Shown here in pieces: positions 8,786-31,748 of a stretch of DNA of 51,563 nucleotides (position 1 is its first letter; every line of letters starts with the position of its first letter). The stretch is taken from NCBI GenBank assembly GCA_029879645.1, contig JAOUPX010000008.1, positions 1 through 51,563 on the forward strand, given 5' to 3'. The stretch comes from Nitrospinota bacterium. Its GTDB lineage: Bacteria > Nitrospinota > Nitrospinia > Nitrospinales > Nitrospinaceae. The notes beneath the pieces are model-generated. The model was not told where the DNA came from. It saw nothing but the letters and a program-made list of their open reading frames with translations, and did no database searches. A program made the position numbers and the translations under genes.

Positions 8786-9694
8786 ATGCAACGCGCAGGA
8801 GTAACTTTCATTGCCATTTTCAATGTCGTAATCGGGATTCTATCTCTTTTTTATTGTTCTCCGGTTTTGGCCAAAGAACGACTGGGAACGGCGCAACATC
8901 CCGTCCGCATGATGTTCGTGCCCTCCGGCGAAGCGCAGACCATTCTGGAAGGCGGCGAGGAAATCGGTCGACGCCTGCAAAAAATCACCGGCCTGCATTT
9001 TAGAACGTCCATCGCCACCAGCTATGCCGCTGTGATCGAGGCCATGGGCGCGGGCAAGGTGGACATTGGCTGGCTCGCCACTTTCTCCTATGTGCTGGCG
9101 AAACAAAAATACGATGTCGATTTAATGCTCATCGTCGTGCGATTCGGCAGTCCGTTTTACCGGGGGCAGATCGTTACCCGCACCGACAGCGGCATTCAGA
9201 AACTGTCCGACCTCAAAGGCAAAACATTCGCATTCGTCGATCCCGCTTCCACCTCCGGCCACCTGTATCCGAAAACCTTGCTGTTGTCCAAAGGGCTCAA
9301 TCCTGACCGCCTGTTCGCGCAATCCCGGTTTGCCGGATCGCATAACGCCGTGATCCTCTCTGTGTTGAAAGGGGAGGTGGACGCCGGGGCAACCTACGAC
9401 GACGCCCGCGCCGCCGTCGCTAAAACCTATCCGGAGGTCTATGAGAAACTCCGTGTAATTGCTTACACCAAAGATATTCCCAACGACACGGTATCGGCGC
9501 GCAAGGATCTCGACCCTGCGATCAAACAGAAAATCAAATCCGGGCTTCTGCAACTTGCCAAAACGCCCGAGGGAAGTAAGGTGTTGAAGCGCGTGTACGG
9601 GATCAGCGGGCTGATGGATTTCGATGCGTTTTTCGATCCGGTGCGCGAGGCGGGCCGCCTGCTCGATCTGGATTTGAAGAAGACCAGTCCCTAA
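8786..9694 (+). CDS. phnD: Phosphate/phosphite/phosphonate ABC transporter substrate-binding protein (PhnD-like)
   Basis: Signal peptide; GKTFAFVDPASTSGHLYPKTLLLSKGLNP and GSHNAVILSVLKGEVDAGATYDDAR motifs. Confidence 0.9.
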   Translation: MQRAGVTFIAIFNVVIGILSLFYCSPVLAKERLGTAQHPVRMMFVPSGEAQTILEGGEEIGRRLQKITGLHFRTSIATSYAAVIEAMGAGKVDIGWLATFSYVLAKQKYDVDLMLIVVRFGSPFYRGQIVTRTDSGIQKLSDLKGKTFAFVDPASTSGHLYPKTLLLSKGLNPDRLFAQSRFAGSHNAVILSVLKGEVDAGATYDDARAAVAKTYPEVYEKLRVIAYTKDIPNDTVSARKDLDPAIKQKIKSGLLQLAKTPEGSKVLKRVYGISGLMDFDAFFDPVREAGRLLDLDLKKTSP

Positions 9695-9737
9695 GGAGGC
9701 CTTTACATAGGCAGTTTGATGTTGTGGTCGTTAGGAT

Positions 9738-9827
9738 AAAACATAGATTCTTCGTCGTCGTTGGCTCCTCAGAATGACAATACTTTACTTTCTGTCATTC
9801 TGAGCGTTAGCGAAGAATCTGTGTTTT
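9738..9827. repeat. About 90-bp imperfect inverted repeat (MITE/palindromic-repeat-like)
   Basis: Outer arms AAACATAGATTCTTCG / CGAAGAATCTGTGTTT and inner arms CTCAGAATGACA / TGTCATTCTGAG. Confidence 0.75.
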
Positions 9828-20932: not shown

Positions 20933-20962
20933 TTGACACTCTTGACAATAAACATATATAAT
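20933..20962 (+). promoter_or_regulatory. Sigma70-type promoter at the head of the DUF1566/NHL/TPR cluster
   Basis: TTGACA (20933-20938), 18-nt spacer, TATAAT (20957-20962). Confidence 0.7.
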
Positions 20963-21059
20963 CCGACTGATTCCAATAAAATTCGTCTAAAGCATTAATT
21001 TTTCATATATTTTCGGAAGTACTCCGGCGGATTATTGTCTTTTTGAAGGAGATAAGGCT

Positions 21060-21674
21060 TTGAGTGAACAAGAGACCAGAACAGAAGAAGAATTAGAGGG
21101 TCAGGAAGCCGGTGATTCAGGACAGAATCAAAGGCAGGAAGATCCTATTGGTGACCTTTCGGAACTGGAAAAAATAAAAAAAGAGCTGGAGGCTGAAAAA
21201 GCCAAGGCCGCCAAGGAGCTCAAGGAAGGTGAGGAAGAGGATGAGGACCTTCGTGAGGTCGACTATCTCCAGAAACTCATTACCTTGTCGGTGCAGTTTG
21301 ATCATCATGTCGGCGTATACCTCATGGCGGGTTACATTGACTGCGGTTTGAAATACAACCACTTGCTGGCTGAGAGCTATCTCAAGCATCTTGGTTCTAT
21401 CCAGGGTTTCCTGCGCCTGCTGGAAAAAGTGGATGGCGTGACCCGCGAGACGGTTACCAAGGATTGTATTATCCGCCTCCGCAACGTGATTCAGGAAATT
21501 CACAAGAACCTCGTCAAGCCGGTTTACAAAGAAGTCAGTTTGATGAAGAAAAAACCCAACATGGAAAATCTGGATAATTTCAAGCGCGAGTGGAACGAGC
21601 GCCTCAATGATCTGCAGGAGGCCTGTGATTTTGAATACCAGATTCTGGATGTTAAAAGATTTTTGGTGGAATAG
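21060..21674 (+). CDS. Hypothetical cytosolic helical protein with acidic N-terminal tail
   Basis: TTG start with SD GAAGGAGATAAGG; Glu-rich coiled-coil N-terminus. Confidence 0.75.
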   Translation: MSEQETRTEEELEGQEAGDSGQNQRQEDPIGDLSELEKIKKELEAEKAKAAKELKEGEEEDEDLREVDYLQKLITLSVQFDHHVGVYLMAGYIDCGLKYNHLLAESYLKHLGSIQGFLRLLEKVDGVTRETVTKDCIIRLRNVIQEIHKNLVKPVYKEVSLMKKKPNMENLDNFKREWNERLNDLQEACDFEYQILDVKRFLVE

Positions 21675-21839
21675 TCCGGGAGAAGCAGTTCGTAAGGTTT
21701 TTCCCATGATGGGTGTAATAGAAAGCACAGGCTCCGAGCGGAGCCGGGGATACTTGCACTGCGGAAGCCTTTACCGGCTTCCGTTTTCATTTATAAGAGT
21801 TTTAGCTATCCGGCCTGCCGGTTTCAGGGAAATAATCCA

Positions 21840-22874
21840 ATGACCCCCGACGATTTAGATCAGAATTCAGAAAATCAGGAAGAGGCGGAGGAATCTTCCG
21901 GTACCTCCACCCTGGAAGTGATTGATCAGGCGGAAGAGGTTCTGCCTGAGGAGCAACCTAAATGGGCGGATGTCGATCACTCCAAATTGTATGTCTGGGT
22001 GGCCGATGCCGGAAATGACCGCATTCAAAAGTTTGACGGGAATGGGAAGTTTCTATTCCAGTTTGGCAAGTCCGCGGGTACGCGCCCGCCTTATCGCGAG
22101 GGTCAATTTAAAGGCCCCTTTGGCGTGGCGGTGGATAAGGAAGGTAATGTCTGGGTGGCGGATACCGGCTGCCATCGTATCCAAAAATTCAGTCCAGAGG
22201 GCGACTTCATCCTGTCTGTGGGAACCGAGGGTTGGGGACAGGAAAAATTCTATTGGCCGGAGGCCATTATCGCCGAACCTGGCGGCACAATCCTGGTGGC
22301 CGATACCCACAATCATTCGCTCAAGCGGTATGATGACGATGGAGAATTTCTGCTTGGATTCGGTTTTCCGGGCGATTTTGACGGATTCTGCAAATTCCCC
22401 TCGGGTGTGGCGGTCGATCAGGAAGGCAATATTTATGTGGCCGATCGTGATAACCAGCGCATCCAGATTTTTAATGAAGAGGGTCAGTTTTTATCCAAGT
22501 TCGGTGAGTACGGTTTCGAGGAAGGGCGCTTTAACTTTCCCTGCGATCTGACCGTGCGCAACGACGGTACCCTGCTGGTGGTCGAAAAAAGCCAGAACCG
22601 GATGCAATTGTTCGACCGTGAAGGAAACTTCATACGTGTTGTCGGCGAATTCGGGAAACGGGATGGCCAATTCAATTGTCCCATGGCCGTGGTGGAAGAC
22701 CCTTACGGTTTCGTGTTTGTGGTGGATACACTGAACCATCGCATTCAAAAATTTGATCCGGATTTGAACTTTGTTTCCAAATGGGGATCGGTCGGCAACG
22801 AGGAAAAACAGTTTCATAATCCCTCCGGGTTGTGCCTGTCCTGGGAGCCGGATTGGGTTCCTACGGATGAGTAG
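21840..22874 (+). CDS. NHL-repeat beta-propeller protein with acidic N-terminal tail
   Basis: Repeats VADAGNDRIQKFDGNGKFLFQFG, VADTGCHRIQKFSPEGDFI, VADRDNQRIQIFNEEGQF. Confidence 0.93.
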   Translation: MTPDDLDQNSENQEEAEESSGTSTLEVIDQAEEVLPEEQPKWADVDHSKLYVWVADAGNDRIQKFDGNGKFLFQFGKSAGTRPPYREGQFKGPFGVAVDKEGNVWVADTGCHRIQKFSPEGDFILSVGTEGWGQEKFYWPEAIIAEPGGTILVADTHNHSLKRYDDDGEFLLGFGFPGDFDGFCKFPSGVAVDQEGNIYVADRDNQRIQIFNEEGQFLSKFGEYGFEEGRFNFPCDLTVRNDGTLLVVEKSQNRMQLFDREGNFIRVVGEFGKRDGQFNCPMAVVEDPYGFVFVVDTLNHRIQKFDPDLNFVSKWGSVGNEEKQFHNPSGLCLSWEPDWVPTDE

Positions 22875-23565
22875 TTTAAGGATGGTAAGGATTAAGACTC
22901 AAAAAGAAAGCCCAACTGCAAGAGCGGGGATCCTTGTGCTGGCTGCGGCCTTGTGGGTGTGGCCGGGCCTCGGTTGGGCAGATGAAGGGGCCGGAGTTGC
23001 GGTGACGCATAATCCTGCGGCAGAGAAGGCGAAGGAGGATCAGACCGACTATGAATTCGGCGGGCAGATTTTGACGTTGACTGAGCCCAGAGCGGATTCG
23101 GCGCCCACGTCCAGTAATGCCCAATTCCAGGACAATAAAAACGGAACGGTGACTGATCTGAAGACGAAGCTGGTCTGGGAGCAAATTGATTCCTATCAGT
23201 CCCGCAAGCAGTGGATCAACTGGAACGAGGCGCAGGATTACATTCGCGAACTCAATGAAAAAAAATTTGGTGGAGCCGACAACTGGCGTCTGCCTACCCG
23301 CGAAGAACTGGCTACTTTATTCGATGAAAAACAGTCCATTCCCTGGAACTATTACTGGACCAAAAACGAGCTTCATATCGACCCCATTTTCGGCAAGAGC
23401 CATTGCTGTTACTGGACCAGCGAGGAGGCCAAGGGGGATATGGCTTGGGGTTACAATTTTATCCGCGGCAAAGCTTATCTGAGTATGAAGGGCGGGATCC
23501 AGAAATCGCTGAGCGTGATCCGGGCTGTGCGAGGTGGCAACGGTTCTGAAATGGCGAACAAGTGA
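22867..23565 (+). CDS. Exported or membrane-anchored DUF1566 (Lcl_C-like) protein
   Basis: Hydrophobic N-terminus ILVLAAALWVWPGLGWAD; FQDNKNGTVTDLKTKLVWEQ...NWRLPTREEL; start overlaps the upstream stop (ATGAGTAG). Confidence 0.85.
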   Translation: MSSLRMVRIKTQKESPTARAGILVLAAALWVWPGLGWADEGAGVAVTHNPAAEKAKEDQTDYEFGGQILTLTEPRADSAPTSSNAQFQDNKNGTVTDLKTKLVWEQIDSYQSRKQWINWNEAQDYIRELNEKKFGGADNWRLPTREELATLFDEKQSIPWNYYWTKNELHIDPIFGKSHCCYWTSEEAKGDMAWGYNFIRGKAYLSMKGGIQKSLSVIRAVRGGNGSEMANK

Positions 23566-23600
23566 TTTCCAGACCCATATTAGGAGTCAACCGGTAAATC

Positions 23601-24404
23601 ATGAGCTCCGAAGATCAAGAGGAAAAATCCATTCCGGATGATCAAGTGCCGGAAGAAGCAACCGACCCGAATCTGCAGGCATCAGAGGAGGACGAGGACG
23701 CCCTGGACCGCCTTGAAAAAGAGGGCGGAGAGCTGGCGGAGTTTGACCTTGAGGCTCAAATCGAGGAGTTTCGCGCCGCGATTGAGGAAGACCCGGACAA
23801 CTGCATTCATCATTACAATTTGGCTGAAGCGCTGGAAGAGGCGGGAGAGCGCGAAGAAGCCCGGGCGGAATATGAACGCGCCTTGGAATGCGATATTGAG
23901 CAGGACTTCCACGCCATCATTCACTTTGGAATGGGCAACCTGATTTTCCATCAATTGCTGTCCGGTATTCAGTCGGTAGTGGTCAAAAGCTCAGTGGGTC
24001 TGCATTCCGCCCATAAACCGGGAGACTCTATTGTGGAGGTGTATGAGGACGATTATACGGTTCCCATTCACCATTTCCAAAAAGCGATCGAACACCTTCC
24101 GCAGTTGAAAGCAGATGATGAGCTGGTTGATTACATCAGCAAAGAGGCCCCGGTTCAACTGGCCAATATCTATTACAAGTGGGCATCGGATCTGATCGAT
24201 AAATCCAGGCAGATCACGAAATATGGAGGCGAAATTCAGGATGTTCAAAAAGCCGTGAAGCTGATGAAAAAGACCCTGGAAATCGATCCCAATCATTCCC
24301 AGGCCAACCTGATGTCCAAATACGCCAAAAAAATGCTGGCCGAAGGATGGAAGGCCTTTGACGAATACGGTTTTGAAGCGAAAAATATAGAGGGGTTAGG
24401 CTGA
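23601..24404 (+). CDS. TPR-like protein with acidic N-terminal tail
   Basis: CIHHYNLAEALEEAGEREEARAEYERALECD repeat; Glu/Asp-rich N-terminus. Confidence 0.82.
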   Translation: MSSEDQEEKSIPDDQVPEEATDPNLQASEEDEDALDRLEKEGGELAEFDLEAQIEEFRAAIEEDPDNCIHHYNLAEALEEAGEREEARAEYERALECDIEQDFHAIIHFGMGNLIFHQLLSGIQSVVVKSSVGLHSAHKPGDSIVEVYEDDYTVPIHHFQKAIEHLPQLKADDELVDYISKEAPVQLANIYYKWASDLIDKSRQITKYGGEIQDVQKAVKLMKKTLEIDPNHSQANLMSKYAKKMLAEGWKAFDEYGFEAKNIEGLG

Positions 24405-24443
24405 TTTTTATTTTAAATTAATATCCTATCCAATGGAATTTTT

Positions 24444-24839
24444 ATGGCGGACATAAAAAAACTGATTAAAGCGAACCTGAGTAGTGACGGCCAGGTGCTT
24501 AACCTTAAAGCCAAGTATATTCGTGAAGTGGGCGCGAAAGAGTTGGCGCAGTGCGAAGAATTATCCGCCCTGCGGGCGCTGGACCTTTCCCAGAACGACA
24601 TAGGAGACGAAGGGATCAGGGCCATCGCCGAGTCGCCGGTGTTCGTCAACCTGCGAACATTGAATTTGAAGTCAAACCGGATTACAGACATAGGCGCCAA
24701 TTATTTAGCCCATTCCCCCACTTTGACCAACCTGAAGTCCATTCAACTGGTGGTCAACGACCTGACTGAGGAAGGGGAGCGGGCGCTAACGAACTCTACC
24801 CATTTGATAAATTTAACCTCTCTCAAATTTCAGGTCTGA
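24444..24839 (+). CDS. Leucine-rich-repeat (ribonuclease-inhibitor-like) protein
   Basis: LRALDLSQNDIGDEGIRAIAESPVFVNLRTLNLKSNRITDIGANYLAHSPTLTNLKSIQL. Confidence 0.85.
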   Translation: MADIKKLIKANLSSDGQVLNLKAKYIREVGAKELAQCEELSALRALDLSQNDIGDEGIRAIAESPVFVNLRTLNLKSNRITDIGANYLAHSPTLTNLKSIQLVVNDLTEEGERALTNSTHLINLTSLKFQV

Positions 24840-24913
24840 GAGGTCGTTTTGCTTGAGGCCGGTGGTTCATCGTATAATCGATTGTTTTTAAATAGATTAT
24901 ATTTTGAATATTG

Positions 24914-24922
24914 TGGTATAAT
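24914..24922 (+). promoter_or_regulatory. Extended -10 promoter element
   Basis: TGGTATAAT; no good -35 seen. Confidence 0.5.
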
Positions 24923-24929
24923 TAATGCC

Positions 24930-25075
24930 TTGACTTGCCAGGCGGGTTTTGCTAATTTCCCTGCATACAAGGCTAGTGTCAGGCTCCCGGAAAGGAACCG
25001 GACTTGAGCCGTATATGGTATTGCGGGTTTTGAATGCTATTCAGAACGGTAGCCGCCCTGATTGGAGTTTTTGAG
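24930..25075 (+). ncRNA. Candidate structured RNA or long leader (class unassigned; 6S-like architecture possible)
   Basis: Intergenic; nested pairings CAGGCGG/CCGCCCTG (one bulge), GGCTCCCGG...CCGG..GAGCC apical hairpin, small GAAT-GCT-ATTC hairpin; extended -10 just upstream. Confidence 0.4.
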
Positions 25076-25151
25076 TCCTATTGACTTTTAGTACATAACT
25101 AACTAATTAACAGTGTTTCTTAAATACCACCAATTTGAAAGGGGGAGCACA

Positions 25152-25643
25152 ATGGTAAGAAAATTTACTGCCGTCCTGACCTTGGCTTTCGTTCTGTTGG
25201 CCTTCACTTCCTTGGCCACTGCTAATGAAACCCTACTGAAAAAAGGCGATTCTTCTGTTTGTGAAAAAGCGTCATGGATTGCCTACAACTCCAGCGAAAA
25301 CGAAGAGACAACCCTTCAGTTCGATATCGGCCCCGTTGCTTATGGCTGGGGAAAAGAGGAGACTGTCGAAATTCCTGCGGGAGGTTGGGAGTCTAACGCT
25401 TTGGCCGAAAAAACTGTATTCACCAACAAAGGCCCGGGAGACGTTGTTGTAAACTGTCAGCGTCAGCGGTTTGACCGCCATGACTGGAAAATCGATGCAG
25501 GTTCCGGTAAGACTTATCAGTCTAACTACCATATGGATCATGTACAACCCGGCACGTATATCGAGCCTGGTCTGGGAATGCCGGATGGTACCGAGCGCGG
25601 TATTGGCGCAATTACGGGTCATCGCTCTGAATTGAATCGCTAA
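25152..25643 (+). CDS. Hypothetical exported protein (about 163 aa)
   Basis: ATG at 25152 with SD AAAGGGGGAG; signal peptide MVRKFTAVLTLAFVLLAFTSLATA; own terminator. Confidence 0.8.
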   Translation: MVRKFTAVLTLAFVLLAFTSLATANETLLKKGDSSVCEKASWIAYNSSENEETTLQFDIGPVAYGWGKEETVEIPAGGWESNALAEKTVFTNKGPGDVVVNCQRQRFDRHDWKIDAGSGKTYQSNYHMDHVQPGTYIEPGLGMPDGTERGIGAITGHRSELNR

Positions 25644-25667
25644 GCGTTACTCTTACATCGCATTATC

Positions 25668-25701
25668 AGCCGGAAGGTTTCGACCTTCCGGCTTTTTTTT
25701 T
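25668..25701 (+). terminator. Rho-independent terminator
   Basis: AGCCGGAAGGTTTCGACCTTCCGGCTTTTTTTTT. Confidence 0.95.
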
Positions 25702-25776
25702 ATGAATCCTAAAATCCGAATCGTTTATCTTATTAATTTTGAATTGATGTGAAACTTGGATTTTACGAGGTAAGAT

Positions 25777-26271
25777 ATGGAAGAACGATTTATAGACAAT
25801 GGGGATGGGACGGTAACCGACCGGAAAACCCACCTGATGTGGATGCAAAACGATTCCTATAATGTATTTAAGAGATTTCTGGTATATTCCGTCGCTAAAA
25901 AATTCCTCGCCAAAATGAATGATGAATCCTTTGCCGGGCACAACGACTGGAGAATACCGAGCAAGGAGGAAGCCCATTCCCTGTATTACCGGGATAAGGA
26001 GAAATCCATCCAGGATAAGTATGAAATGGATCTGTATATAGATCCGGTGTTTACCGAGGGGGGTGGCTATGACACCTGGACAAGTAATACCCGAGGCAAA
26101 ATCACCGCTTATGTGTTTTCGTTTGGCAGTGGCACTGGAGGACATAAAGAGGTGGACGACACTCTGGACACCAGCGTCCGTCTGGTGCGGGGCACCATGG
26201 ATGAAAAAGTCAAAGCGGTTTTGGGTAAAATTCCTCCCAAAAAGGGAATGGTGGTGACCGATCAACGCTGA
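25777..26271 (+). CDS. DUF1566 (Lcl_C-like) protein
   Basis: FIDNGDGTVTDRKTHLMWMQNDS...FAGHNDWRIPSKEEAHSL. Confidence 0.88.
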   Translation: MEERFIDNGDGTVTDRKTHLMWMQNDSYNVFKRFLVYSVAKKFLAKMNDESFAGHNDWRIPSKEEAHSLYYRDKEKSIQDKYEMDLYIDPVFTEGGGYDTWTSNTRGKITAYVFSFGSGTGGHKEVDDTLDTSVRLVRGTMDEKVKAVLGKIPPKKGMVVTDQR

Positions 26272-26474
26272 TTTTTAAAGGTTTGGTGGGAAATCTCGAT
26301 AATTCCGATTTCCTCCGGTTAGGTGTTGAAAAATCACTTCCTGGGTGATACTTTATCTGTAAACTTTCTGAAAAATGAAGGTGTTAGAGGGTGGTCTCCA
26401 GATGGGGTATGGCCATTCTACATCACTCCTGAGAACCCAAAACGAGAAGTTGGTTTTGGGTTTTGGCAATTTAT

Positions 26475-26915
26475 ATGACAAATACTGAAATATTGTTTGA
26501 AGATAATGGTGATGGAACCATAACTCAGATTGGTGAGGATTTGATCTGGGCTAAAAAGGATTCTCGTCAGGAGTTAGGCAAATGGCTTAATTGGGACGAA
26601 GCCAATGCTTATAAGGACGCCTGTAACGAGCAGAGCTATCTCGGGGCCAACGATTGGCGATTGCCTACTAAAAGTGAAATACGGGGCCTGTTGAATGCTC
26701 AGGCGGCTTATGAAGAGCTGTTCATGAACCTCCCCTCCAAAAAACAACGGTCTGTTTCCAACTATCAGGCCGGAGGGGAATGGAGTTACTGGACATCGGA
26801 AACTCGTTACGACTCCTACGCCTGGAAATGCTATTTCCCAGTCGTCAAGGAAGTGTGTGTCGACCAGCAGGTGTCCACCACAGGGACTTCGGTCCGTCTG
26901 GTCAGGGATGCCTGA
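26475..26915 (+). CDS. DUF1566 (Lcl_C-like) protein
   Basis: FEDNGDGTITQIGEDLIWAKKDS...YLGANDWRLPTKSEIRGLL; ...WSYWTSETR. Confidence 0.87.
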   Translation: MTNTEILFEDNGDGTITQIGEDLIWAKKDSRQELGKWLNWDEANAYKDACNEQSYLGANDWRLPTKSEIRGLLNAQAAYEELFMNLPSKKQRSVSNYQAGGEWSYWTSETRYDSYAWKCYFPVVKEVCVDQQVSTTGTSVRLVRDA

Positions 26916-26962
26916 CATCAAAATCCGCCTCCTGAAGGAGGTGGGTGATAAGGAGAACCATC

Positions 26963-27613
26963 GTGCCCGAAGAAGAAGTTAAAGACCCATCGAAAAACCA
27001 GGAAAAAACCCAAGAGGAAGCTAAAGAGACTCTTCCGCTGGACGATGATTTCGAGGATGAAGAGGGCTTCGATGTCGATGAGTGGATCGGCGACGATGAT
27101 TGGGAGGAAATTGAGGAGGAGGAAGAAGAAGAGGATTTCGGAGCTCCTCAGTTTGTTGACAACGGCAACGAAACTATCAGTGATTCCAAATCCAACCTGA
27201 TGTGGAAAAAAAGCGACTCCTTCGCGGATTTTGGTTATGGGATTAATTGGTACGAAGCCAACGATTACATCGAAGAACTGAACGAAAAAAAATTCGCGGG
27301 TTTTGATGATTGGCGGCTGGCTGGGTTTGACGAAGCCAAATCCCTGTTCGCCTTTGCTGTTTCCAATAGGGATAAGGACGGTGCGGAACTCCACATCGAT
27401 CCCCTGTTCACTACCGGCGGCGGCCACAATACCTGGACCTATGAGGAGAAGCCGGATTATCAGCAATACGCCATGATGTTCAGCTACATCACAGGTAACG
27501 AAAAATGGGAACATAAAGATAACGAATACTGTCATGTCCGACCCGTTCGCGAGGAACAGAAAGAAACGTGGGAACCCGAATGGCGGACCGAGACCAGGAA
27601 ATTTGAAGGTTAA
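26963..27613 (+). CDS. DUF1566 (Lcl_C-like) protein with highly acidic N-terminal tail
   Basis: GTG at 26963 with SD AAGGAG-7 nt; DDDFEDEEGFDVDEWIGDDDWEEIEEEEEEEDF then FVDNGNETISDSKSNLMWKKSDS. Confidence 0.87.
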   Translation: MPEEEVKDPSKNQEKTQEEAKETLPLDDDFEDEEGFDVDEWIGDDDWEEIEEEEEEEDFGAPQFVDNGNETISDSKSNLMWKKSDSFADFGYGINWYEANDYIEELNEKKFAGFDDWRLAGFDEAKSLFAFAVSNRDKDGAELHIDPLFTTGGGHNTWTYEEKPDYQQYAMMFSYITGNEKWEHKDNEYCHVRPVREEQKETWEPEWRTETRKFEG

Positions 27614-27654
27614 GATTATTTGGATTTGATGGACGTCGGAAGAGAGAGGTGGTT

Positions 27655-27870
27655 GTGAGTCATTATATGATTTTTGGAAAAGACGATTGTCCTTATACCC
27701 AAAAGGCTCGTGAAGATTATAAAAAGAAATGCAAGCCCTTCATCTATGTTAATGTGGATAACAATCCACAGGGTCTGGAAAAAATGCTGGAATATTCCAA
27801 CGGGGATTACGTGGTTCCGGTAATTGTCAACGTCGATGAAGGAAACGTCGAAATCGGTTATACCGACTGA
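27655..27870 (+). CDS. Glutaredoxin-like protein, CPYT active site (resembles Cys form of the UXX-star family)
   Basis: YMIFGKDDCPYTQKAREDYKKKCKPFIYVNVDNNPQGLEKMLEYSNGDYVVPVIV. Confidence 0.8.
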   Translation: MSHYMIFGKDDCPYTQKAREDYKKKCKPFIYVNVDNNPQGLEKMLEYSNGDYVVPVIVNVDEGNVEIGYTD

Positions 27871-27886
27871 CGGGGGAAGTGACACT

Positions 27887-28396
27887 ATGGCAGAAGAGGA
27901 AACCAAACCGGTTGTTCAAGACACACAAACCGACAAGCTGGAAATCGTGGACGAAGGTCCAAAACGGTTTGTGGAACATGGGCCCCAGGTAATTCAGGAT
28001 ACGAAAACTGGGCTTTACTGGCTTAAAAAGGATTCCTGGCAGGACCGAGGCAAGTACTTTAACTGGCATGAAGCCAAGGAATTTGCAGAAAGAAAGAATG
28101 TACGGAAGATCGGCGGATTCGCCGATTGGCGTTTGCCGACCAACGAAGAAGCGGCAACTCTATATAATGAGGAATGGGAAAACAAAGGTAAATCCGGCGA
28201 AACCATTCATATCGATCCCCTGTTCCCGGAAGGGTCCTTTAAAATGCAATGGACGATGGCGGATACTTCTACCCGTCGGCCACGGTTCGATTATATTAGC
28301 GGCCAAATTGCCAGTGCGGATGAATACGCTTTCGGTTCTGTGAGAATCTGCCGCAAGGATCCAGTTAGAACCGTGGGCCGCAGGAGAAACACTTAA
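27887..28396 (+). CDS. DUF1566 (Lcl_C-like) protein with acidic N-terminal tail
   Basis: ATG at 27887 (MAEEETKPVV); TGLYWLKKDSW...GGFADWRLPTNEEAATLY. Confidence 0.87.
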   Translation: MAEEETKPVVQDTQTDKLEIVDEGPKRFVEHGPQVIQDTKTGLYWLKKDSWQDRGKYFNWHEAKEFAERKNVRKIGGFADWRLPTNEEAATLYNEEWENKGKSGETIHIDPLFPEGSFKMQWTMADTSTRRPRFDYISGQIASADEYAFGSVRICRKDPVRTVGRRRNT

Positions 28397-28409
28397 GGAA
28401 TCCAGCGTT

Positions 28410-29306
28410 ATGAGTGATACCAGGGTCAAATCCCGATTTGTAGACAACGGTGACGAAACTGTCACCGATATCCGAAAAAATCTGATGTGGGCCAAAGATG
28501 ATACTTGGGTCAAACTCGGAAAACTGGTTTCATGGTGGCAGGGGCAGGACTATTTAAAGGAATTGAACGAACAAAAATTTGCCGGGTATTCTGATTGGCG
28601 ATTTCCCAATGGCCAGGAAGCCCGGGAATTGTACGACCCCGAACTGAGCAATACCGATATGGAAGGATGTGAAGCCCATATCGACCCGGTATTCACTTCC
28701 GGGTGCGGGTATACCACCTGGACTACTGAAACCCGAGGCGCCAAAGCCGCCATGGGTTATGATTATCGCTCTGATTACGAATATTGGCTGGCCCGGGAAA
28801 ACGATGGGTTTCCAAGCAGTGTTCGTCCTGTCCGGACCATCACATCAAAAACGAATCTGACCCTTGAAGAACGGTTCAAGGTAAATAAAAAAGGGACCAT
28901 CAGCGACCTCGAAACGGGGCTGATGTGGAAGAGCGCCGATTCCTTTCTGGAAATGGACAAATGGATCAGTTGGCAGGAGGCTAAGGTTTATGTGGGTGTA
29001 CTCAATCAGGAAGAATTTGCCGAGCACTCTGACTGGAGAATGCCCACTCGCAAGGAGGCGCAATCCATCCACGACCCCAATAGCCCTGTGACGGACACTT
29101 ATGGCGATGTTCTGTATTTGCCCCCGGTATTTCCCCCCGGTGCCGGACAGACAACTTGGACCAAAACCCTGCATAAAACCGATAATAGCCTGGCGATTCG
29201 ATTCAACTATTACAGTGGGGATTATAAATTCCATAAAAAGGGGCTGAGAAGTCACGGCGTTCGGGCCGTCCGGACACTCTCGCCGGAGGAAATTAATCAT
29301 GAGTAG
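28410..29306 (+). CDS. Two-domain DUF1566 (Lcl_C-like) protein
   Basis: Two copies: LMWAKDDTW...FAGYSDWRFPNGQEARELY and LMWKSADSF...FAEHSDWRMPTRKEAQSIH. Confidence 0.9.
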   Translation: MSDTRVKSRFVDNGDETVTDIRKNLMWAKDDTWVKLGKLVSWWQGQDYLKELNEQKFAGYSDWRFPNGQEARELYDPELSNTDMEGCEAHIDPVFTSGCGYTTWTTETRGAKAAMGYDYRSDYEYWLARENDGFPSSVRPVRTITSKTNLTLEERFKVNKKGTISDLETGLMWKSADSFLEMDKWISWQEAKVYVGVLNQEEFAEHSDWRMPTRKEAQSIHDPNSPVTDTYGDVLYLPPVFPPGAGQTTWTKTLHKTDNSLAIRFNYYSGDYKFHKKGLRSHGVRAVRTLSPEEINHE

Positions 29307-29754
29307 CGCAGAGCCGGCCCCAGCCATCGCCCAGCAGAGATTTGCCGAGGGGGATGAACTGACAATTATTGATCTCAAGCGGAAACTGGTTTGGATTAAA
29401 CAGGATACGTTTCAAATGACCGGGAAGTGGTTAAACTGGGTCCAGGTCCGCGATTATGCCAAAGAGTTGAACCAATCCCGATATGCCGGTTACAACGATT
29501 GGCGGCTTCCCACCCTGGAGGAAGCTAAAAGTTTATTTGATAAAAATCAGGTCAACAAAGATCATATGGGACAGAAGGCGTATCTTCATGCCATTTTCCC
29601 CGGTGGATTCGGATTTTTATGCTGGGCCAGTGATGTGCGGAATAAAATTCAGGCGGTCCGCTTTGGTTACCGCAAGGGCGGAATGATGTACGACGACGTC
29701 TACCGGGTTTCGCGGGGTTCCACCCGTCTGGTGCGTGATATGAACAAAGTTTGA
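29299..29754 (+). CDS. DUF1566 (Lcl_C-like) protein
   Basis: LVWIKQDTFQMTGKWLNW...YAGYNDWRLPTLEEAKSLF; overlaps the previous stop (ATGAGTAG). Confidence 0.88.
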   Translation: MSSAEPAPAIAQQRFAEGDELTIIDLKRKLVWIKQDTFQMTGKWLNWVQVRDYAKELNQSRYAGYNDWRLPTLEEAKSLFDKNQVNKDHMGQKAYLHAIFPGGFGFLCWASDVRNKIQAVRFGYRKGGMMYDDVYRVSRGSTRLVRDMNKV

Positions 29755-29775
29755 GCGGACGGAAAAACGCGATCA

Positions 29776-30204
29776 ATGGGAAAACGATTTAAAGATAACG
29801 GAGATGGCACCGTCACCGATACGGAAGAAGGTTTGATGTGGAAACAAACCGACGGGTTCCAGGATCAGAGTATGTTTCATACCTGGTACAAGGCTGAGGA
29901 TTATATCCGGGAATTGAATAATCAAAAATTCGCCGGTTACAGCGACTGGCGCATGCCCAACCTGGAAGAAGCGGAAAGCCTGTTTGTTGAAGAAGTGTCC
30001 ATACGCGATTGCGACCGGTTTGAAATATTCATCGATAAGGCTTTTTCGCCGGGTGGGGGCTATACCACCTGGACCAGTGACCTGAGACCCCACAACGGGG
30101 CGGTGATTTTTTATTACCGGTATGGTCACGCAAACATCAATAATAGGGATGACCCGTCTAAAGACTCCATCCGCGCGGTGAGGACCGTGACGGAAGATGA
30201 TTAA
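29776..30204 (+). CDS. DUF1566 (Lcl_C-like) protein
   Basis: FKDNGDGTVTDTEEGLMWKQTDG...FAGYSDWRMPNLEEAESLF. Confidence 0.9.
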   Translation: MGKRFKDNGDGTVTDTEEGLMWKQTDGFQDQSMFHTWYKAEDYIRELNNQKFAGYSDWRMPNLEEAESLFVEEVSIRDCDRFEIFIDKAFSPGGGYTTWTSDLRPHNGAVIFYYRYGHANINNRDDPSKDSIRAVRTVTEDD

Positions 30205-30240
30205 GTTTCAGAATTAATGTTGTAAAGAAGGAGAACCGTC

Positions 30241-31077
30241 ATCGAAGCGTACAGCGTTGTTAATAATCAGGAAAGCCTGAACTCTGTAATGACCTACCGG
30301 TTCGAGAAGGAGGATTTCAAAAACCTCTACGTTCTGGAGGACTACTATTGTACCAATCCATTTTGCGATTGCAAACATGCCACCATATCCCTGTGCGACA
30401 AGGAGGATGATAATAATCGATTTTCCTTTTTGTTGAATTTTAATAAAACGCATGGGCTTCTACCCAATCATCCGGAACTGACCGAGAGGCAAAAAGCCAT
30501 TGTCGAAGAGTTCATGGCGGAAGTAACGGATGAAATGATCGTCCTCTTTAAGCAGAGATACATGGAAGCCAAAGCCTATGGCGAGAAAAATCCCATGTCC
30601 TATCTCGTTTTCGAATCGGGGCGCTATGTCAACTATATGGAGATGTTCCCCCGGTCGAACCAGCTTCTGGACTTTAAATTTAAGGATGACAAGTATTTTG
30701 CCGAAGACGCTTACGAACTCGACCCGCGCAATGACAACAGAAACGTTCAGTTGACGTTTTACAAATTCGACCCGTCAGAAGATCGTCCGCCTCCTATTTT
30801 TTCCTTCAACTATTATTTTAATGAGCAGCAGCGGGAGGAAGAAGAGGCCCGGCTGGAACCGGCGAACAGTGAATTGTTTTTGGAGTTTGTCGGGTTTATT
30901 CCCAATCTGAGTGATCTACTCAAGCAGCGTTACAAGGATGCCAAGCAGATTGGAGATGAGTTGTTGAAAACAACCGCAAAGCTGGAAATCAAGCCCCACA
31001 AGATTCAGCGTAACGAAATGTGTCCCTGCGGATCTGGAAAAAAATTCAAAAAATGTTGTGGCCTGAAACTCAATTGA
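30241..31077 (+). CDS. SEC-C motif protein
   Basis: C-terminal CPCGSGKKFKKCCG zinc motif. Start uncertain: SD AAGGAG lies 7 nt before ATC at 30241; first ATG is at 30289. Confidence 0.8.
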   Translation: MEAYSVVNNQESLNSVMTYRFEKEDFKNLYVLEDYYCTNPFCDCKHATISLCDKEDDNNRFSFLLNFNKTHGLLPNHPELTERQKAIVEEFMAEVTDEMIVLFKQRYMEAKAYGEKNPMSYLVFESGRYVNYMEMFPRSNQLLDFKFKDDKYFAEDAYELDPRNDNRNVQLTFYKFDPSEDRPPPIFSFNYYFNEQQREEEEARLEPANSELFLEFVGFIPNLSDLLKQRYKDAKQIGDELLKTTAKLEIKPHKIQRNEMCPCGSGKKFKKCCGLKLN

Positions 31078-31110
31078 TGGAAATCAATTCAAAATAAAGG
31101 TAGCACGGTT

Positions 31111-31662
31111 ATGGGTAACCCAGAAAAGAAAGTCAAAAAAGTTCAAGCCCGCCATATCCTGGTTGCGACCAAGGAACTTGCGGATGAAATTAAGCAGAAG
31201 TTGGACGATGGCGAAGAGTTTGCCAGGATGGCCGAGCAGTATAGCGAGTGCCCTTCAAAAAAAAGGGGAGGGGATCTGGGCTGGTTCGGCAAGGGCGCCA
31301 TGGTTCGACCCTTCGAGGTGGCTGCCTTCAGCGCGGCAGAGGGGGATGTGGTCGGACCTGTCAAAACCGAATTCGGTTGGCACCTGATTTATGTTTATGA
31401 AATCAAGGACGATATCAACCCCGATGAAGGCCCGCCCACCGGCGATGAAGACGCAGACGAGAAAACCCTGCGCCTGGTGGCCGAAAACTACGCTCACGAA
31501 TTCATGATGCTCGGCTATTCCAGCAAAAAAGTGCTGAGCCTGTTTACCAGCACCCACTTCAAGTCGGCCAACGCGGTTTATAATATTCTGGGTGAAAGAG
31601 TAATCAACGAAGTTATTGCCAAGGTGTTCGGGCAAAAGATCGAAACCGGTGGAAACAAGTAA
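31111..31662 (+). CDS. Parvulin-type peptidyl-prolyl cis-trans isomerase
   Basis: ARHILVATKELADEIKQKLDDGEEFARMAEQYSECPSKKRGGDLGWFGKGAMVRPFE...GWHLIYV. Confidence 0.92.
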   Translation: MGNPEKKVKKVQARHILVATKELADEIKQKLDDGEEFARMAEQYSECPSKKRGGDLGWFGKGAMVRPFEVAAFSAAEGDVVGPVKTEFGWHLIYVYEIKDDINPDEGPPTGDEDADEKTLRLVAENYAHEFMMLGYSSKKVLSLFTSTHFKSANAVYNILGERVINEVIAKVFGQKIETGGNK

Positions 31663-31714
31663 ACTTTAACGAATCGTGGCCGGATAATATCCAGTTGCAG
31701 GCAGGATGATGCAA

Positions 31715-31748
31715 ATAAAAAACCCGCTCCCTTGGGAGCGGGTTTTCT
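31715..31748. terminator. Bidirectional Rho-independent terminator
   Basis: AAAAAACCCGCTCCCTTGGGAGCGGGTTTTCT between convergent genes. Confidence 0.93.

Follow-up and report, generated by a model that had tools for sequence, protein, structure and literature searches.

A conserved sixteen-gene cluster rich in Lcl_C (DUF1566) domains in the order Nitrospinales

We describe here a cluster of 16 same-strand genes located at positions 21060-31662 of a 51,563-nucleotide stretch of DNA (the window, labelled G000:C76; contig JAOUPX010000008.1), which is part of a 3.2 Mb, 94% complete genome whose host belongs to Nitrospinales, the order that contains the major marine nitrite oxidisers. The cluster brings together nine Lcl_C domains (DUF1566, PF07603) and NHL, TPR, LRR, glutaredoxin-like, SEC-C and parvulin proteins. 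Its existence and conservation are the firm result of this work, unlike its mechanism. The cluster is ancient, strongly preserved and, within the phylum searched, confined to Nitrospinales; it is more than a chance neighbourhood. As regards function, we tentatively favour a lineage-specific, mainly cytosolic hetero-oligomeric assembly in which the Lcl_C domains would act as dedicated protein-binding subunits.

Gene content of the cluster

The genes follow one another in this order:

21060..21674, + strand: hyp1, 204 amino acids, acidic tail and helical bundle, no Pfam family
21840..22874, + strand: NHL beta-propeller, Pfam NHL 116 bits, no signal peptide, acidic N-terminal tail
22867..23565, + strand: LclA, exported Lcl_C protein, Lcl_C 80.9 bits, hydrophobic export signal
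23601..24404, + strand: TPR protein, no signal peptide, acidic tail, 21 orthologues aligned
24444..24839, + strand: small LRR protein, Pfam LRR_6 46 bits
25152..25643, + strand: secr, 163 amino acids, exported, two conserved Cys, no Pfam family
25777..26271, + strand: LclB, Lcl_C, no signal peptide, 1:1 orthologue, missing from the G013 cluster
26475..26915, + strand: LclC, Lcl_C, no signal peptide, 1:1 orthologue
26963..27613, + strand: LclD, Lcl_C, long acidic N-terminal tail, isoelectric point (pI) 4.1-4.3 in all genomes
27649..27870, + strand: UXX-star family 1 glutaredoxin-like protein, CPYT, cysteine form, NF041114 83.6 bits (cut-off 72)
27887..28396, + strand: LclE, Lcl_C, mostly basic, median pI 9.0
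28410..29306, + strand: LclF, two Lcl_C domains (F1 and F2), AlphaFold pLDDT (predicted local distance difference test) 80
29299..29754, + strand: LclG, Lcl_C, mostly basic, median pI 9.3
29776..30204, + strand: LclH, Lcl_C, ratio of nonsynonymous to synonymous substitution rates (dN/dS) 0.03-0.05
30289..31077, + strand: SEC-C protein, SEC-C 38 bits, N-terminal 230 amino acids forming an order-specific family
31111..31662, + strand: parvulin (PPIC), Rotamase_3 90 bits, no signal peptide, cluster-specific C-terminal part

The nine Lcl_C domains lie at 23143-30183 on eight open reading frames (ORFs), all of them (9/9) above the Pfam gathering score, and LclF (28410-29306) is the only ORF that carries two. 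The NHL, TPR, LRR, SEC-C and PPIC-parvulin identities are backed by Pfam profile matches and the glutaredoxin-like one by NCBIfam. A preliminary description of this DNA had recognised the same domains, including the nine on eight ORFs, as well as the acidic helical gene, and in all of this it proved right; it was also correct in seeing a same-strand run, of about 15 genes in its count and 16 in ours, and it had not listed secr (25152-25643). Regarding charge, the cluster is split: hyp1, NHL, TPR and LclD bear acidic tails, whereas LclE and LclG are mostly basic. The AlphaFold model of hyp1 consists entirely of helices (pLDDT 73), and the fold search with it gave no PDB match at E<=0.001. The C-terminal part of the parvulin has no second copy elsewhere in the genome.

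The AlphaFold model of LclF was compared by Foldseek with the C-terminal domain of the Legionella collagen-like adhesin Lcl (8q4e), giving a probability of 1.00 and a template modelling (TM) score of 0.59 over the target, and a mixed Lcl_C profile also matches 8q4e by sequence (E 8.6e-5). In this predicted model, LclF has the C-type-lectin-like fold of Lcl_C. In Legionella, the domain is a trimer that binds sulphated glycans (PMC11162425).

Conservation and distribution in Nitrospinales

Gene order is identical in the window and in 20 relatives that belong to three families, and the profile count of Lcl_C domains is nine in every one of them; further genomes agree where the contigs are long enough, bar small changes. 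In G013, the sole sampled member of a fourth family, 15 of the 16 genes are found together (LclB is missing and LclG precedes LclF), with none of the flanking window genes nearby (0/37). G014 has kept 16/16 cluster genes compared to 6/37 of the other window genes. Conservation of the gene neighbourhood, which the preliminary description had proposed to check, is therefore observed across Nitrospinales, and the cluster stays together even where the flanks have changed.

The presence of individual genes points in the same direction. Both hyp1 and secr were found in 56 of the 64 Nitrospinales genomes and in none of the 13 other Nitrospinota, and the genomes in which hyp1 was not detected are metagenome-assembled genomes (MAGs) that are 57-84% complete. 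secr, specific to Nitrospinales, is present in every cluster read. Full-length relatives of the SEC-C protein occur in Nitrospinales only, while outgroups match the zinc motif alone, so that this protein in its full length has the same phyletic distribution as hyp1 and secr. Overall, marker genes were present in ~88-91% of the Nitrospinales genomes, the misses being incomplete MAGs. A hyp1 query against named genomes returned 51 loci, titled Nitrospina, Nitrospinaceae, Nitrospinota/Nitrospinae or Nitrospinia, except for two SZUA records titled Nitrospirae. The outgroup G031, whose Lcl_C copies are the most similar to those of the cluster, has six, which are neither orthologous to these nor clustered.

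An in-frame TAA splits LclG of G048 (G048:C39:116473-116850), the only disrupted clustered Lcl_C gene observed, and secr of G010 (L043, about 9300-9791; G010:C28:18305-18790) has three in-frame TAA in its 5' part, as a result of either a broken gene or an assembly error. It should be noted that the extra LclD/LclE copies suggested for some lineages by a first BLAST map were overlapping-frame artefacts, since the profile count was nine everywhere. Likewise, the one-contig genome G057 seems at first to have lost most of the cluster, but this is best explained as an artefact, because stretches of unknown bases of the kind seen in joined contigs occur in the record, other cluster members are located elsewhere in it, and the sister genome G056 has an intact cluster.

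A fixed set of Lcl_C paralogues

The genome contains 26 Lcl_C domains in total, and 24 of these are reciprocal best matches of single genes in G014 and G017, which represent two other families, with identities of 42-77%. G017 has exactly 24 Lcl_C, every one matched to an orthologue. By comparison, different cluster paralogues share 27-43% identity with LclH. Each of the 24 orthologue sets formed a supported clade of its own when a maximum-likelihood tree was built, and the cluster paralogues have, each one, their own invariant residues beyond the general signature. The 24 conserved domains are split into nine in the cluster and fifteen that are single and dispersed, each with a locally conserved neighbourhood. 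To judge from these comparisons, the cluster belongs to a wider, fixed Lcl_C set, whose 15 dispersed single-copy paralogues are equally conserved. The paralogues appear not to be interchangeable, with no sign of redundancy or turnover; fixed one-to-one paralogues of this kind would be expected for subunits or adaptors with separate jobs rather than for variable surface adhesins.

Outside the cluster, 17 Lcl_C genes were located singly at 17 loci of G000 (L119-L135, about 6-17 kb), amid metabolic and housekeeping genes. They are mostly 140-160 amino acids long and without a signal peptide, and 15 of them are conserved one-to-one across three families. The other two domains (L130 and L135) are near-identical copies, each cut by a contig end (C47 and C23), and are possibly one gene or a recent duplicate; the longer copy presents an apparent response-regulator receiver and a hydrophobic segment before the Lcl_C domain. 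FGE-sulfatase proteins, which have another C-type-lectin-related fold, are encoded near two of the dispersed genes (L124:4974-5822 and L126:118-1095).

Predicted localisation and selection

Lcl_C-type lectin-like domains are elsewhere usually found on the cell surface. Using a deliberately generous export rule (any start codon, any hydrophobic stretch), export-like N-termini were found in 6/25 (G000), 5/23 (G017) and 6/27 (G014) Lcl_C genes, largely the same orthologues, compared with 11/19 in the outgroups. About three quarters of the Lcl_C genes in these Nitrospinales genomes lack an export signal. Within the cluster only LclA (22867-23565) and secr carry one, in agreement with the earlier statement that most products have no signal peptide. 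LclB, C, F, G and H have only a few residues ahead of the domain, too few to hold a signal. The cluster products are therefore predicted to be mainly cytosolic.

The dN/dS values, computed against three congeners, are rough because dS is near saturation for several pairs; they were mostly 0.03-0.10 for the non-exported members (0.03-0.05 for NHL, up to 0.12 for LclG), similar to those of the neighbouring serA and aminotransferase genes. LclA (0.13-0.17) and secr are the least constrained members, with values reaching 0.13-0.22. On this estimate, the clustered cytosolic genes appear to be under housekeeping-level purifying selection. The idea that secr is a protein expressed at nxr level was discarded, since its codon use does not single it out (codon adaptation index of 0.655 against nxrAB).

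Transcription signals

The cluster is flanked upstream by a TPR gene and a radical-SAM gene, and downstream by serA and an aminotransferase gene (named from translations), all on the opposite strand. Five transcription signals were identified:

20933..20962, + strand: sigma-70-type promoter TTGACA-18-TATAAT, 12/12 match, upstream of hyp1
21761..21784, + strand: intrinsic terminator-like hairpin after hyp1, similar hairpin in 13/19 genomes
24929..24954, + strand: secr's own promoter, CTTGACTT-N11-TTTG-TA core
25668..25693, + strand: strong terminator after secr, 11-bp stem and T tract, 20/21 genomes
31719..31746, no strand assigned: hairpin flanked by A and T tracts, between the convergent parvulin and serA genes, read from the sequence

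The hyp1 promoter, already pointed out in the preliminary description, is a perfect match whose hexamers are kept while the spacer varies in 18/19 genomes, 94-127 bp upstream of the gene. For secr, the -35 (TTGACTT) and the TTTG-TA element are invariant in a 20-genome alignment, and the pattern matches once at each cluster locus and nowhere in the dispersed-copy loci; the Shine-Dalgarno sequence AAAGGGGGAG is also invariant across 20 genomes. The final hairpin had been described as bidirectional, which its A and T tracts on both sides and its position between convergent genes support. A terminator-like hairpin lies 3' of the parvulin gene in 11/21 genomes. The 31719-31746 hairpin of the window was not listed by the consensus scan.

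These signals predict four transcription units, namely hyp1; NHL-LclA-TPR-LRR; secr; and LclB to parvulin. The single promoter-to-terminator transcript of the preliminary description is consequently not supported, given the terminators after hyp1 and secr and the separate promoter of the latter. The second and fourth predicted units showed no conserved sigma-70-type promoter, and therefore read-through or another promoter type is possible. The search for riboswitches or leader RNAs in the cluster gave three weak Rfam matches only (E 0.013-0.8), all below the gathering score.

Possible function of the cluster

Starting from what was directly established, that is, gene content, order, conservation and selection, the predicted export signals and Lcl_C fold, and the conserved promoters and terminators, we propose tentatively that the products form the hetero-oligomeric assembly mentioned above. 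The outgroup relatives of the Lcl_C proteins mostly have export signals; in Nitrospinales these signals would have been mostly lost and the domain multiplied into about 24 fixed single-copy paralogues, which could then serve as non-interchangeable subunits, each dedicated to binding a protein. The acidic hyp1, NHL and TPR proteins, together with the LRR protein, may constitute a scaffold that binds the basic LclE and LclG partly by charge. The parvulin, glutaredoxin-like and SEC-C proteins may help to fold or redox-tune the subunits, and the exported LclA and secr could link the assembly to the envelope. The mutual binding of the products is an inference, as are the roles of scaffold and helper and the pairing by charge. 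In this interpretation, the multi-gene, mostly cytosolic and undescribed set of the preliminary description is retained, without its single transcript; one complex with redox and folding helpers, which that description suggested, stays a proposal. A bolder version, which we consider rather doubtful, is that of a categorically new intracellular machine of Nitrospinales, in which about 24 lectin-fold paralogues, none of them redundant, would build a large hetero-oligomer whose core is the cluster; their domain would descend from an exported one of adhesin type that entered the cytoplasm in the order's ancestor.

Several observations weigh against the proposed assembly. At the position of the trimer-stabilising Arg342 of Legionella Lcl, the alignment has R/K in A, B, C and F2, and F, N, G, L and L in D, E, F1, G and H, respectively. 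This arginine is thus not common to all the paralogues, and because of this, hetero-oligomers or different contacts are possible among the Lcl_C proteins of the cluster. The zinc motif of the SEC-C protein is gone in 7/20 orthologues (L042, L043, L045, L047, L048, L049 and L052), the rest of the protein being conserved, so that the motif appears dispensable. Furthermore, four transcription units are predicted instead of one operon, with a conserved promoter ahead of both hyp1 and secr and a terminator after each of the two. Finally, conserved order alone is weak evidence outside G013 and G014, because ~17 kb upstream of the cluster are also syntenic in three relatives.

This last point bears on the view that there is no single system, but an old array of independent genes held together by slow local rearrangement in Nitrospinales, each Lcl_C protein having a different partner. 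The flanks and the dispersed Lcl_C genes are likewise in conserved neighbourhoods, and the separate transcription units would fit as well; however, the G013 cluster stays together with all its flanks different, G014 kept the whole cluster and few of the flanking genes, and the marker genes follow one phyletic pattern. We regard this explanation as rather unlikely. Another reading places the working parts outside the cytoplasm: the exported secr and LclA would form a layer at the surface or in the periplasm, for which the cytosolic genes would provide quality-control and assembly factors, or else the Lcl_C proteins would exit without a signal peptide. That most Lcl_C genes, as well as NHL, TPR, LRR, hyp1 and parvulin, are devoid of an export signal argues against such an envelope system, as do the unexceptional codon use of secr and the weaker constraint on secr and LclA. 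Nevertheless, secr is always mid-cluster and has an invariant promoter and Shine-Dalgarno of its own as well as a strong terminator, it shares with LclA an export signal, and Lcl_C is typically an exported adhesin fold. On balance, we judge an envelope system unlikely.

Since the Legionella domain binds sulphated glycans and glycogen deposits have been reported in N. gracilis, cytosolic lectin-like domains might also coat or organise internal carbohydrate, such as the Nitrospina glycogen. This possibility is quite improbable, as a lysine cluster like that of Lcl is not evident in the cluster proteins (the loop alignment is unreliable there) and several members are strongly acidic. Very improbable, in our opinion, is a role as assembly factors for nitrite oxidoreductase or another respiratory enzyme. 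The cluster is indeed order-wide in a nitrite-oxidising clade, and its parvulin is distantly NifM-like (59 bits, below the cut-off). Yet nxrAB of G000 lies on another contig (L261, G000:C159), beside a flagellar gene block and with no Lcl_C seen nearby, and NxrB was not detected in several complete-looking genomes that bear the cluster, e.g. G013, although multi-copy nxr is often missed in MAGs.

Among the known nitrite oxidisers of the oceans, Nitrospinae are described (PMC8026999) as the most abundant group. Nearly all Nitrospinales keep this 16-gene block, under what seems housekeeping-level constraint, and to judge from the literature searched it appears to be undescribed. Should its products prove to make up a single assembly, this would be a cell component that defines the lineage and, to our knowledge, an uncommon example of a lectin fold of the adhesin or retroelement-target type made into a fixed intracellular set of parts. 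Orthologues are expected in the cultured Nitrospina gracilis.

Comparison with known systems

The preliminary description had regarded the set as a candidate undescribed system, and this is how it still stands after searches with PADLOC, with PHROGs and in the literature. PADLOC matches were limited to the SEC-C motif and a single weak one to NHL, with no known anti-phage defence system; a phage or defence origin was considered, but PHROGs and PADLOC were uninformative in this respect. We found no description of the cluster in the literature searched, and among 18 DUF1566 papers listed, none dealt with Nitrospina.

DUF1566 is reported to be the commonest Pfam domain among the targets of diversity-generating retroelements (DGRs), with a C-type-lectin fold (PMC6642488). 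The cluster shares this domain with them, but differs in the strong purifying selection estimated here and in that no reverse transcriptase (RVT_1) was found in the 94% complete genome; because of the latter, retroelement-driven diversification is not applicable, and a DGR-diversified array was rejected on both grounds. For the NHL protein, the best NCBIfam match is ScyF, the NHL protein of scytonemin synthesis (NF035926), at 186.5 bits; this is far below the cut-off of 350, and the cluster protein has no signal peptide.

Regarding the glutaredoxin-like protein, its score is above the cut-off of UXX-star selenoprotein family 1, but it has a cysteine and not a selenocysteine in CPYT, and its placement inside an Lcl_C cluster is a new element. 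Lastly, the collagen-like adhesin Lcl of Legionella (8q4e; PMC11162425) has the same Lcl_C/DUF1566 domain, by profile and by predicted fold. An adhesin of that type combines an export signal with collagen repeats, while in the cluster only LclA of the eight Lcl_C proteins has an export signal, and no collagen repeat was present in the translations. Lcl is a single exported glycan-binding trimer with collagen repeats, whereas the Nitrospinales cluster has eight Lcl_C genes whose products are mostly predicted to lack a signal peptide.

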